This document shows positions 1,528 to 28,994 of a stretch of 64,000 bases of DNA, in pieces. Every line of letters begins with the position of its first letter. The first letter of the stretch is position 1. The notes beneath the pieces were generated by a model. That model searched no databases and was not told where the DNA came from. It saw only the letters and a list, made by a program, of their open reading frames with translations. The translations under genes were made by a program, and so were the position numbers. The stretch comes from Ascidia mentula (taxonomy: Eukaryota; Chordata; Ascidiacea; Phlebobranchia; Ascidiidae). The DNA lies in assembly GCA_947561715.1 (NCBI GenBank), contig OX387197.1:4407001-4471000 (forward strand). Direction: 5' to 3'.

Positions 1528-2972
1528 GTATAACGGAGGAAGATGGTGATAGCGCTTCAGAGCAAAGGACGAGTGGGCCCGAAGTTAGATTGAAAACTTC
1601 ACAACTAACAAACATCAGAGAGGGTCGCTTCAACAACGGAGCCACACGTAAATATGATATTGTATGATGTAGTTTACTACTATGGCATATGAACAGTTAT
1701 AGCAACCATATTGGATCAGTGAATCCAAGCTAAACGTATTGAGAGTTTCTGTGTCAAACTGAAAACCTTTTCACGCAGAAACTTACATCACTATCTCCAG
1801 CCAACTTTTTTTAACAGAGACATTCAAATAATCGATTGCTGTAAAAAAACGATGAGCATTTAATCAGGCAAGTTATGATTTCTCGCTTTTTTGCAGATCT
1901 TCCAATTGATTGGGATAAAATGGATGGACAACCTCAAAAACTAGTGTCTTTAAGACATTTTTCATTGGAGTTTAAACGTGTGGTTAGACAAGTTCAAAAC
2001 ACCCACACCTGCCGCGTCATTGACGTAATTAAATATTTGTTGTTTTTATTATGAGCGCTTCGGTTCTTGCTTTATACTCTGAGGAACACTGATAACACGT
2101 GCAAATTACCAGGGTACTATTTGTTTTAGATTGAAAGAGTACAAAATCCCAATCTACACAAACTATTCGAGAACCACAAAATGTTCATTAAAGATCAATT
2201 GGAATCAGAGGGGAATTACAGAATGTTGGTAACAAGAAAACTTTTCCACGGCGTAACCATGAATTCCGTGCAAAACATATGTCAGAACGGTTTCGACAGA
2301 AGCTATCACGGAGCAAACGGTAAAGGATATTTTATGTGCTAAAATCTTATTACCTTCAGCCTGTATAATAGTTGGTTAGAGGGATTTGATTGTACGCTGA
2401 TGATTTATTCGTCTTTTTCGTACATTAATATTATTTGAGAACACTTTTTTATTCGTCCAAGTGCGAGCAAATTTGTGTACTGAAGTTACTACGAAAAATG
2501 CCACGTTCGCATTACTATGTTTACAACTTGCCAAAGTTTTTACAAAATAGATTTTACAAGTTTACAACATGAACTGACTATTTCATTTTACTTGCGACAT
2601 TTTCTTGAGTGTCATGTCTTGTCAGAATGGAATACTAACGTTGGCAAAACAGGAGGCCTTGAGAGAAATGAATTTTCTAGTATATTTAATTACGTAGGTA
2701 CCGAATACGGAAATGGAGTTTATTTCGCTGAAAATGCGAATTACTCCCACAAATACACCAGACCGGAAAGAAGTGGCAAAAGAAAAATGATTTTAGCTGA
2801 AGTGATTACTGGGCATTACTGCGTTGGAAACAATGAAATGAAAGTTGCTCCATTTAAACCAAACGGACAACTTTTTGACAGCGTGGTAAACAATACAAGA
2901 AATCCAACAATATTCGTAGTTTTCCGCGACGCCAGTGCCTATCCTAAGTACATCATCACATATGTAAAATAA
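1528..2972 (+). CDS. PARP14-like mono-ADP-ribosyltransferase, copy 1 (5' end not seen)
   Basis: Four exons are supported by splice signals and phase: 1528-1647, 1897-2024, 2130-2319 and 2698-2972 (stop TAA). Intron phases after the first three are 1, 0 and 1. The product is the C-terminal catalytic domain of the PARP10/14/15 group: LPIDWDKM start, RKLFHG (catalytic His), YGNGVYFA (catalytic Tyr), then NPTIFVVF with Ile at the third position, giving an H-Y-I triad. In this family H-Y-I indicates mono- rather than poly-ADP-ribosylation with NAD+ as donor. The end AYPKYIITYVK matches the usual C-terminus. The first exon begins in phase 1, so at least one exon is missing upstream; it may lie outside the window. 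No macro or WWE domain is visible. No AATAAA was found close to the stop. Confidence 0.85.
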
Positions 2973-4625
2973 CGCCTAAAGATCAAATATAAGTACGAAT
3001 AATTTTTTCCAGTGTACATAGTGCAAAACTTGCAAAAGTGATGTTTAATGATATTTTGGTCGAAATTGTCGGGTTATTCTATCTCAAGTAAATAATCATA
3101 TATGTGAGTTTTCAAATTAGAAAGTTGCATATGGATAAATCCTATTTGTATTTACATTTTCGTTTGCAGTTTGTTGTTCGTTTCATTTCTGGTGAAACTT
3201 ATAAGCCTAACATGTGTGCAATTGCTTACTCTTGGTTTCATGATTGTGGTTAAAGTGATGTGGTTAGTATTTCAAAGGCCAAAGTCCTGTTACGAGATGT
3301 AACCCAAATTGAACCAAGTTTATTTAAGGTTTTATCGGTGTCTATGTTATTTTGACTTGCATAGTTGCAGTCTACTGCGACATAAATCTTACCGAGTCAG
3401 GTGCCCATATGATGTTTAATTCGTTGCAGAAAATCACGCTTTGCCTAAGGATCCCACCCCACCCGGTCGTGCTGGCCAAAAACCTTCTCTGCTCCGAGCA
3501 CATCCAGTGACGTGTTAAACTTCCAACTTCCCTAAGTTTGTAAGGTCCAGCAAAGTAGAAGATGTCAGGCCACCGAGAATTAGTTTAAAAATATTGTGAA
3601 TATGGTACGAATTTACAACGTTCAAATAGTTAATGTTTGGTTCGCAGAGTCGATTACATGTTACTGTTGAGAGAGGTACAAGGCCCAGGAGAAAAGGAAA
3701 GCTCAGATGGGCCAACATAAGTAGCTTTGTCAATATAGACACAGACACTAGCATAGCTGCTATTTACATTTGATATAAGGCTATGCTCGACAAGTGCCGA
3801 AGGGAGTGTGCTTAAGGTTTACCTTATACTTGCCGAATTCAGAAGGTATTTAAAACTTTGTTATGATAAATATCTTTGAAAAACATTAATGTTATATAAA
3901 TGTTAAAATGTACAGTGAAATTGAAAGTGAAATGTATAGTGCGGTCGTCATGCTTGCTCAGCATCTCAATTTACCCCCAGAACTGCGTAAAATCCATCTA
4001 AAGTTAACCATCAGGGTGAACTTCGGGTACACTCGGCACTACCCCAAAACATGCGTAAAAATAGAGGTTGGAACTGCTTAACTTTGACTAACGATTAAAA
4101 GCAACATAATGTTGTAATACTCAAAACATTTTCAGTGAGGAAAAGTTCTGCTTTGTGTTTTGTTGTTTACACCCTTTTGTTCCTTTTTAATGCTGAAAGT
4201 AAGTTTATACAATTAAATTTTATCCTTTTTTTCATTTAAATTTCTGTTAATTCCTTTGTTAGACGTGGGTGAGCATTAGTGAGTCTTTCAATTTTGTTAC
4301 ATAAATTTGGTTCGCGGAAGCCTTTACCTTATTTGTTCACCACGCACAAACTCACGGTGCGCCCATGCGCTGATAACAAGACAAACAATTCCGCACGAAA
4401 CCAAACACATTGACGTACAATGCTACATGCGCATGCCTGGAAAGAGGAAATAAAGTGCTTGTTTGCGCAGAATAACGCAACGCATCTTACCAGCTCTTCT
4501 GCTCTGTCAGTTACAACTAATGTTCTTACCTTGTGGCAGTTGTAAAAACAAACTAAAACATAGATGTATGAATTTAGGTATCAATTCACATCTGACGAAT
4601 AAATGAAGCAGGATATTGTTTTGCA
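2973..4625. other. Spacer between PARP copy 1 and the four-TM exons
   Basis: It should hold the 3' UTR of copy 1 and the promoter of the next gene. A donor-like GTAAGT at about 4199 follows a T-rich open stretch and might end a 5' non-coding exon. I see no coding exon here; the minus-strand frame at 3515-3754 has no recognisable domain. Confidence 0.4.
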
Positions 4626-5365
4626 ATGGAACGCAAGAAACTACTATCAAGAGTGGGAGTTTCTGTTTTTGTGGTTGGATTATTGGCCTATGTTGCTGCT
4701 ACAGTTCTTGCTGTGACAGCGATAACCACATGCCATTGGGTTGACGACAGTTCAAAAGATGTTTCTTTGGGTGTTCTTTATTTTTGCGGTTCAACCGAAA
4801 ATGAAAGAATTCCTGAAGGTGGGAGTGGATATAAAGGAAAGTGTAAGCAATCAATGTTAATTTTTAATTATAAACGTTGACAGAACTTAAAAGTGGTGGA
4901 AGACAGGCGGTGGCTGTAATGCTTCTCTTTGGCATAGCTATTAGTGTCTTCTCTGAAATTGCATTTATTTTGAGCATCAGAAGGGACACTGTCCATGTTC
5001 TACTTTACCATGGCGCGAAGGCCGCAGCGGTTCCTATATGTAAGTATTTGGATTTATTGAGGTAGTAATGCTAAAATACTTAGTGTTGCATCAATTCAGA
5101 AGGTACATTATCAGGTTATAGAGCTACCGACAAAAAAAATTAAAACTGTGTTAACTTTTAAATATTTTTATTATTCCAGCATGTTTCTACACGATTGCAG
5201 TGGCTGTTTTTGCAAGTCCAACAGGTTTGCAAGGCCTCCCGGATACATCTTATCGAGGATGGAGTTTCACAGTAGCGTTTTTTGCATGGGTGTCTTCAAT
5301 AGTTTCTTGTATCTGCTGGTTTGTGTTGATGTGCTTGAAACCATCGTTTCTGCAACAAAATACGG
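4626..5365 (+). CDS. Four-transmembrane claudin/PMP22-like module, probably the N-terminal half of a 4TM-PARP protein
   Basis: Exons read as 4626-4818, 4884-5039 and 5180-5365, all ending in phase 1. The 178 residues form four hydrophobic segments: TM1 about 9-34, TM2 73-94, TM3 109-128, TM4 146-169. The first outer loop has a Trp (TCHWVD) and LGVLYFC, recalling the W-GLW-C signature of claudin, PMP22 and EMP proteins; the second loop Cys is doubtful. The first junction is the weakest. AAG|GTGGGA (exon end 4818) keeps the frame, whereas the better-looking GTAAGC donor at 4843 would create a TAA when joined to the acceptor at 4883. If the phase-1 donor at 5366 (ACGG|GTGACG) is used, the frame continues into the PARP exon at 5731. 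If not, the protein reads on to a stop at 5451 as a separate four-TM protein of about 206 aa. Confidence 0.65.
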
Positions 5366-5459
5366 GTGACGTTGTTTTTTGTTTTACCCGGTCATTCCTG
5401 TGGCTATCTATAGCTTGTTTTCAAAAATCGAGAATCGAACTATATTCTTAAACAAGGAA

Positions 5460-5498
5460 TCCAGACCTGCAGTGTATTGGCATTAGCCACAGGAACAC
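5460..5498 (+). repeat. Segment homologous to 1455-1493 (intron of PARP copy 1)
   Basis: CCAGACCTGCA, then GTGTATTGGCAT and GCCACAGGAACAC, match the sequence upstream of the first PARP exon of copy 1 with few differences. Sequence to the left of 5460 does not match copy 1, so this marks the left boundary of the PARP tandem duplication. About 200 bp at 5499-5700 is present only in this copy. Confidence 0.7.
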
Positions 5499-5730
5499 AA
5501 GACCTGTAATGAACTCCACACTACTCCTGTCTTATTTATTGGCAAATTTAGTAGAAACATTAATATTTTGTTTCTACGACATCCCGAAGAATCATAAAAT
5601 ATGCATTCTTTTGCAAGAAAGTTTCAGCAAAAATTTCTGTCATTTAAAAATATAAACTCGTGCTCACACTCGTATGCCCAGTTGTAACTAATACACTACT
5701 TTTCTTTGACTAAAACTTCAGTCGTCGCAG

Positions 5731-6736
5731 GTATACCGGAGGAAGGTACAAATCGAAGGCCAAGAAGGCCGAGAAGGCCAAGAAGGCCCGCAGTTAGATT
5801 GGAAACGTCACAACTAACAAACAGCACAGAGAGTCACTTCAACAACGATGTTACACGTAAATATGATGCATTTTACCACATATCTGTAGGCAAATAAAGT
5901 AAATCATTGCTTTTATGCAGATCTTCCAATTGATTGGGATAAAATGGATGGACAACCTCAAAAACTAGTGTCTTTAAGACATTTTTCATTGGAGTTTAAA
6001 CGTGTGGTTAGACAAGTTCGAAACACCCACACCTGCCGCGTCATTGACGTAATCAAATATTTGTGTTTTTTTTATTTGAGGTTTTCGGTATTTGCTTTTT
6101 AGTCTGAAGAGTATGGGCAACATTCGTGCATTAACAAAAGAACACTCATTTTAGATTGAAAGAGTGCAAAATGTCATTCTCCACAAACAATTCCAGACCT
6201 ACAAAAACTTTGTTAAAAATCAGTTGGAATCAGAGGGGAACCACAGAATGTTGGTAACAAGAGAACTTTTCCACGGTACAACCAGTGACGCTGTGCAAAA
6301 TATATGCAAGAACGGTTTCGACAGAAGCTACCACGGAGCAAACGGTACATAATATTATAAGTGCTAAAATCGCGTGCATCCAATGTAGAATTCAAACTTT
6401 GGCAAAACAGGTGCCCTTGTTTGAAGAGGAATTAATTTTCTGGTATGTATCAATTACGTAGGTACCGCATACGGAAATGGAGTTTATTTCGCCAAGCAAG
6501 CTAATTACTCCCACTTTTACGCAAAGCCGGAAAGAAGTGGTCAAAGAAGAATGATTTTAGCCGAAGTGATTACAGGACATTACTGTGTTGGAAACAGTAA
6601 AATGAAAGTTGCTCCATTTAAGCCAAACGGAAAACTTTTTGACAGCGTGGTAAACGATATAAGAAATCCAGCAATATTCGTGGTTTTCCGCGACGCCAGT
6701 GCCTATCCAAAATACATAATTACATATGTAAAATAA
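5731..6736 (+). CDS. PARP14-like mono-ADP-ribosyltransferase catalytic exons, copy 2
   Basis: Exons 5731-5856, 5921-6048, 6155-6344 and 6462-6736 (stop TAA) have the same sizes and phases as copy 1 apart from a 6-nt longer first exon. Joined to the three four-TM exons upstream, the model is 1254 nt, a 417-aa protein. In that numbering the catalytic triad is His303 (ELFHGT), Tyr335 (NGVYFA) and Ile398 (NPAIFVVF). The fold should use NAD+ for mono-ADP-ribosylation of proteins or nucleic acids; the substrate is unknown. The first exon encodes a basic, proline-rich linker with four RRP-type units, which would sit on the cytosolic side just after TM4. Copy 2 keeps all three triad positions and has no frameshift, so it looks functional. 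Confidence 0.85.
5754..5789 (+). repeat. 9-bp tandem repeat coding an RRP linker
   Basis: Four in-frame 9-nt units of the type (C/A)GAAGGCC(A/G/C) encode Arg-Arg-Pro four times between the four-TM part and the PARP domain. The same exon of copy 1 has no such repeat. Confidence 0.9.

Positions 6737-28994
<22,258 letters not shown>

Follow-up and report, generated by a model that had tools for sequence, protein, structure and literature searches.

A gene of seven exons in the ascidian Ascidia mentula reads as one open frame of 417 amino acids, and the best reading of this frame is a predicted fusion of a claudin-like tetraspan (4TM) block with a PARP14/15-type ADP-ribosyltransferase (ART) domain, which would add a new domain architecture to a known enzyme family. 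Strong support for this fusion comes from paralogs, in which the same linked 4TM-ART order recurs, and the gene probably belongs to a multigene family encoding membrane-tethered cytosolic mono-ADP-ribosyltransferases that combine one or two PMP22/claudin/LHFPL-like blocks with a PARP14/15-type ART domain. The gene lies in a stretch of 64,000 nucleotides (positions 4,407,001 to 4,471,000 of contig OX387197.1), referred to here as the window, on a 27.9-Mb contig (C1) of the 195.8 Mb of genome searched. The DNA itself shows the exons, their frame and phases, the recurrence of the linked order in paralogs, four hydrophobic segments, the homology of the ART domain and a conserved catalytic triad; that the 4TM and ART parts are carried by one mRNA and one protein is our inference.

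Splicing and translation reproduced the seven exons and phases proposed by the first-pass annotation, with lengths of 193, 156, 186, 126, 128, 190 and 275 nt that add up to 1254 nt, or 417 codons and a stop. All six introns are GT...AG with compatible phases, and the proposed join of 5365 to 5731 keeps one open frame through the 4TM and ART exons. Exon 1 (4626..4818, on the forward strand like the other six) encodes the start methionine, a short basic N-terminus, TM1 and the first extracellular loop, which contains a W and then GVLYFC and misses the second cysteine; its ATG at 4626 lies ten codons inside a frame opening at 4596. Exon 2 (4884..5039), whose junction is homologous to that of the paralogs, encodes TM2 and the intracellular loop. 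Exon 3 (5180..5365) contains TM3, the second extracellular loop and TM4 and ends at a weak phase-1 donor (CGG/GTGACG); if it were read through, 28 extra residues would be added before a stop at 5451. The basic RRP-repeat linker described directly after TM4 is present and is encoded by exon 4 (5731..5856). This exon of phase 1-1 may be optional, since skipping its 126 nt would leave the frame unchanged. Its counterpart was found only in a second ART copy of the window, and comparison of the two gave no sign of constraint (pS 0.29, pN 0.28). Exon 5 (5921..6048) encodes the N-terminal part of the ART domain, and its donor was taken as 6048, homologous to the donor of the second copy, rather than the later site at 6087. 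The triad His (LFHGT) is located in exon 6 (6155..6344), and the triad Tyr (GVYFA), the aliphatic third residue (KYIITY) and the stop codon in exon 7 (6462..6736). Elsewhere in the window, a long CA and then TA dinucleotide repeat occupies 7198-7320, 3' of the gene, and an Ala- and His-rich open frame is found on the reverse strand at 11720-12250, which we take to resemble part of a GATA-type factor.

The C-terminal part of the product is an ART domain. PARP (PF00644) is matched at amino acids 244-414 with an E-value of 7.4e-25 (88.1 bits, against a curated cut-off of 26.7) and is the sole Pfam match of the 417-aa product at E up to 1, macrodomains not being found. The description of these exons as PARP14-like is borne out by the closest PDB sequences, PARP15 (3.2e-33) and PARP14 (1.8e-31), so that the catalytic domains of human PARP14 and PARP15 (ARTD8 and ARTD7) are the closest solved structures by sequence and share with the window domain the His, the Tyr and the aliphatic third residue. 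The product differs from both in its N-terminal tetraspan block, and it was not assigned to PARP14 or PARP15 proper because their N-terminal macrodomains are absent; the relation is one of the ART domain. The H-Y-I triad is intact, as the first-pass annotation had stated. The His is found in 17 of 17 copies of exon 6, and the Tyr together with I or V in 17 of 17 copies of exon 7, fragments weaker than E 1e-20 being excluded and the third position being assigned by visual comparison with PARP15. A triad of this composition, aliphatic in its third position, is the mono-ART pattern in the text available from PMC2964712. Hydrophobic segments of the product, at the cut-off used, are confined to amino acids 5-37, 69-97, 108-131 and 143-175; no TM helix follows the ART domain, whose PARP match ends at residue 414 of 417.

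By hydropathy, these four segments are consistent with four TM helices and a large first extracellular loop, the predicted topology being that of the tetraspan superfamily. The claim that this block is claudin/PMP22-like holds at the level of the family, and the window copy alone stays below the profile cut-off. Eighteen 4TM units, the window unit included, were aligned and scanned singly: PF00822 (PMP22_Claudin) was matched by 12 of the 18 at E up to 1 (best 2.1e-8) and Claudin_2 by 8 of the 18. The window unit gave no PF00822 match at E up to 1, and its match to Claudin_2 (7.8 bits, E 3.5) is below the curated cut-off of 29.1, and the block is therefore named claudin-like rather than claudin. 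A profile of all 18 units, searched against PDB, found LHFPL5 (3.3e-5), MOSMO (8e-5), LHFPL4 (from 0.0017) and the calcium-channel gamma-1 subunit (0.0041), with chance matches from 0.048 on. The alignment has invariant W, G, V and F residues and a first-loop pattern of W, GL(F), xxC and C, and both loop cysteines are present in 25 of 29 exon-1 copies. In the window, exon 1 keeps the W and the first C of this W-GLW-C-C motif without the second C, so that the window block appears atypical, and it is only 22-33% identical to the other units. The spliced protein matched a profile of the 17 other units at 9.3e-30, which is more than chance would give, the best value among 1000 shuffles of the window 4TM part being 0.11. 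The block thus reads as a divergent PMP22/claudin/LHFPL-type tetraspan, an assignment drawn from the family and not from the window copy alone. It was also asked whether the block is one of the ordinary claudins of the genome, which was rejected: none of the 51 genomic matches of the PF00822 profile lies inside a 4TM-ART cluster. This result means that the profile misses the 4TM exons when they are taken singly, and it also counts against a close relationship with claudins.

Recurrence of the pairing across the genome carries most of the argument. Searching with the window 4TM protein gave 22 matches, of which three are the window's own exons and the other 19 lie in regions that also hold PARP matches. 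Twenty stretches of 10 kb and the window, 261 kb together, were then scanned with iterated profiles built from each window exon, and a same-strand order was found to recur, in which 4TM exons 1-2-3, often repeated, are followed by ART exons 5-6-7. Twelve loci have 4TM exons upstream of ART exons on the same strand, distributed over four neighbourhoods on three chromosome-sized contigs (two on C1, one each on C2 and C70). The pairing described for the window gene therefore recurs, whereas the picture of a single gene was incomplete: it is a family, and the majority of its complete copies contain two blocks.

Two full 4TM blocks are present in seven of the 12 loci. All six 4TM exons and the ART are found in C1:4383964-4380441 (-), C70:3757452-3752610 (-) and C70:3774100-3778399 (+), as well as in C1:4391019-4387388 (-), where the spliced model has a gap between exons 5 and 6. 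C1:4374260-4370277 (-) and C1:6523123-6518936 (-) likewise possess six 4TM exons and the ART, with a gap between the TM part and exon 6, and C2:7218581-7214321 (-) has the same exons with a gap between the blocks. A gap, which concerns four of these seven loci, means that no junction was found or that exon 5 is missing. One block is found in the window gene (+) and in C70:3746128-3749138 (+). The remaining loci are less complete: in C2:7193506-7188777 (-) the first block is partial, in C70:3861781-3858362 (-) exon 2 is weak, and in C70:3798777-3791365 (-) a masked run (3792501-3795000) separates the 4TM and ART exons.

A genome-wide search with a 4TM unit more central to the family gave 57 exon matches at E up to 1, only the best candidates being scored. 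Each of the 57 falls in one of the four neighbourhoods on three contigs, with an ART last exon no more than 18 kb away, whichever the strand; 43 are within 10 kb and 40 within 6 kb upstream of such an exon on the same strand. It might be proposed that unrelated pieces lie side by side by chance and that the fusion is an artefact of splice-site choice, and the weak sites of the window, taken without the paralogs, would agree with this. Random placement within 6 kb upstream on the same strand is expected at about 0.0008 per match, although the matches are not independent, as they include several exons per gene and tandem copies. With 40 of 57 matches so placed and 12 loci on three contigs, chance adjacency is scarcely credible and was rejected on the recurrence of the linked order.

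The two modules also occur apart. From 111 ART matches, the 54 covering the last exon were selected by hand; 12 of these belong to the 4TM-ART loci and 42 lie outside them. No ART was found downstream of the 4TM blocks at C1:4352k, 4355k, 4358k and 4377k and at C70:3786k and 3851k, and a lone 4TM exon 1 is located at C70:3869k. The blocks at C1:4352305-4353694 (-) and C1:4358249-4359516 (-) run into a stop soon after TM4 and have no phase-1 donor; they are perhaps stand-alone relatives of the fused block. The ART copies at C70:3783759 and C70:3864659, which have no 4TM, are each preceded by a long coiled-coil-like stretch that shares the open frame of the ART, and in these two the ART module appears to be joined to a different N-terminal part. 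More ART arrays are located at C1:3.71-3.92 Mb, C1:7.43-7.49 Mb, C70:3.48-3.51 Mb, and C73:4.81-4.84 and 6.09-6.15 Mb, and the genome search gave no matches to the 4TM family in any of them.

The window itself contains the second ART copy, open and on the forward strand, with an exon 4-like linker (1528..1647), exon 5 (1897..2024), exon 6 (2130..2319) and exon 7 with the stop (2698..2972). The duplicated stretch (1528-2972) starts within what is intron 3 of the fusion gene. Profile scanning found no 4TM exon upstream of this copy, either in the window or in the 10 kb preceding it, and the copy is either 5'-truncated or joined to some other first exon. An additional 4TM block upstream of the window gene was considered and rejected, as the scan gave no such block in the interval from the second ART copy to 4626.

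Linkage does not by itself decide between one gene and two, and the splice sites bear on this question. Tunicates use trans-spliced operons, and the pairs could be two neighbours, or an operon of the ascidian type, duplicated together; the 4TM gene would then end after exon 3, and a trans-spliced ART mRNA would begin at exon 4 or 5, with the Met of PxxWxxM as its start. This arrangement is considered distinctly unlikely. The host belongs to a group with such operons, and its genome has GH6 matches, which fit a tunicate, GH6 being tied to tunicate cellulose synthase. Several copies of ART exon 5 have a Met at PxxWxxM, the two modules also occur separately, and the donors preceding the ART are mostly weak. 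Against it, exon 4 contains no Met, the exon 5 Met is missing at C2:7189655 and at C1:4371707 (a weak match), and neither AATAAA nor ATTAAA was found by motif search between exon 3 and exon 4 (5366-5730). A gene ending at 4TM exon 3 would need no donor there, and the presence of phase-1 donors speaks for the fusion. When donors were scored in the open stretch after the conserved core of the 4TM exon, the best one was in phase 1 in every one of the 12 last blocks preceding the ART and likewise in all 12 first blocks that precede a second block, compared with 37% of 2000 length-matched control sites. Among five other 4TM blocks the best donor was in phase 1 in two, and in another two (C1:4352k and 4358k) there is no phase-1 GT before the stop.

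The strength of these donors speaks less clearly for the fusion. First-block donors score 2 or more in 9 of 12 cases, compared with 6.8% of the matched control, and last-block donors reach a score of at least 2 in 4 of 12 cases and of at least 0 in 9 (6.8% and 17% of the matched control). The GTGACG donor at 5366, which the first-pass annotation had listed as a weak point, is indeed weak (score 0.6) and is located after TM4, where the best phase-1 donors of the paralogs lie. The other doubtful site, the 4818/4884 junction between exons 1 and 2, shares its columns of the 18-unit alignment with the corresponding junctions of the paralogs, and of 22 units scored, window included, 20 had phase 1 as the best solution there. 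Joint scoring of donor and acceptor between the TM and ART parts, from which the masked locus (C70:3798777-3791365) was left out, favoured phase 1 in all nine of the 12 loci with a scorable exon 4 or 5; two of the nine scores are negative (C2:7218k, -5.4; C70:3774k, -2.2). At C1:4374k and C1:6523k, where no exon 5 passed the cut, the TM part was scored against exon 6 and the result was phase 0. Outside the 12 loci, a fragment of exon 5 with 15 residues at C1:4357686 is compatible with phase 0 only. For the junction of block 1 to block 2, phase 1 was best in 11 of 12, with no solution at C2:7218k. On the weak splice sites of the window alone, the fusion would remain undecided without the paralogs.

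Constraint was estimated by dN/dS. For the ART domain, values of 0.42 (window against second window copy), 0.20 (window against C1:4388k) and 0.33 (a C70 pair) were obtained, and for the 8TM part of two pairs 0.63 and 0.41; block 1 of the recent C1 pair gave 1.1, with few changes. In the window 4TM block dS is saturated and no dN/dS is obtainable. These values bear on the proposal that the family is real and the window copy is decaying or alternatively spliced, so that mainly a 4TM-only or broken product would be formed, a proposal regarded as rather doubtful. It agrees with the weak donor at 5366, the lost loop-1 cysteine, the low identity of the window 4TM to the other units, an unconstrained exon 4 and a 4TM part with saturated dS; an AATAAA at 5893, inside intron 4, would moreover permit a shorter 4TM-only transcript. 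The seven exons are all open and every one of the six introns has GT and AG, which points the other way, as do the ART dN/dS values of 0.20 and 0.42 against two paralogs, and an intact fusion gene is the preferred reading. The recent C1 pair further suggests that modules have been exchanged. The 8TM parts of C1:4391019-4387388 and C1:4383964-4380441 share 86-92% DNA identity, extending to about 130 bases beyond the modelled donor, whereas the ART of the former is 75% identical in amino acids to the window ART and 50% identical to the ART of the latter. An exchange of ART modules between genes, with the break in the intron between the TM and ART exons, is thus visible in the sequences.

Among the open-licence papers listed by the searches, none dealt with PARPs that are multi-pass or fused to a claudin, or with the PARP genes of tunicates, in line with the earlier statement that no described PARP with a claudin/PMP22-like 4TM domain is known. 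Such fused models may already sit unnoticed among the predicted proteins of sequence databases. PARP16 (ARTD15) is a membrane-bound PARP with a TM helix downstream of its ART domain and is targeted to the ER, according to the portion of PMC10450202 consulted. It possesses one C-terminal TM helix and a helical extension, whereas in the window family four or eight TMs are predicted to precede the ART. The window ART matched 48 PDB sequences, none of them a PARP16 chain. The GPI-anchored ecto-ADP-ribosyltransferases (ARTC) are membrane-attached mono-ADP-ribosyltransferases that act outside the cell and carry an R-S-E motif. The window family would likewise consist of membrane-attached mono-ARTs, but it belongs to PF00644, carries H-Y-I and is predicted to be cytosolic. 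With the PMP22/EMP/claudin and LHFPL superfamily it shares the four TMs and, in most copies though not in the window copy with its missing second cysteine, the complete W...GL(F)xxC...C first loop, and it differs from the members of that superfamily in its divergence, its predicted fusion to an enzyme domain and the frequent tandem arrangement of its blocks. To our knowledge, known PMP22/claudin/LHFPL members have short tails and no enzyme domain.

If the fused product is made, one four-helix block (in the window gene) or two would sit in the membrane, and the chain would leave TM4 on the cytosolic side, where a linker, arginine-rich in the window gene, would lead into the ART domain. Basic stretches face the cytosol by the positive-inside rule. 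Both termini are predicted to be cytosolic because the number of helices is even, because the N-terminus and the post-TM4 linker are basic, and because of the supply of NAD+. The putatively active ART domain would add single ADP-ribose units to targets near the membrane. The tetraspan block may direct the enzyme to a given membrane or contact, or may sense something there, and in this way would decide where, and perhaps when, the ART acts. The many copies, their tandem arrays and the swaps of modules would agree, by analogy, with a role that evolves fast and is perhaps related to defence, for which the turnover of vertebrate PARP14 and PARP15, as presented in the accessible part of PMC4038475, offers a suggestive parallel. 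A further, speculative and rather unlikely possibility is that these proteins are lineage-specific receptor-type ADP-ribosyltransferases, in which claudin-like loops would sense a ligand or a neighbouring cell and control the tethered cytosolic mono-ART, the ART modules being exchanged at the phase-1 intron; surface events would then be written directly as ADP-ribose marks.

If joined mRNAs exist, an invertebrate chordate has a branch of the PARP family that crosses the membrane several times, with a claudin-type tetraspan directly before the enzyme. Such proteins would provide a natural, built-in aiming of mono-ADP-ribosylation at a membrane or cell contact, and their genes would clearly illustrate the exchange of membrane and enzyme modules at one intron.
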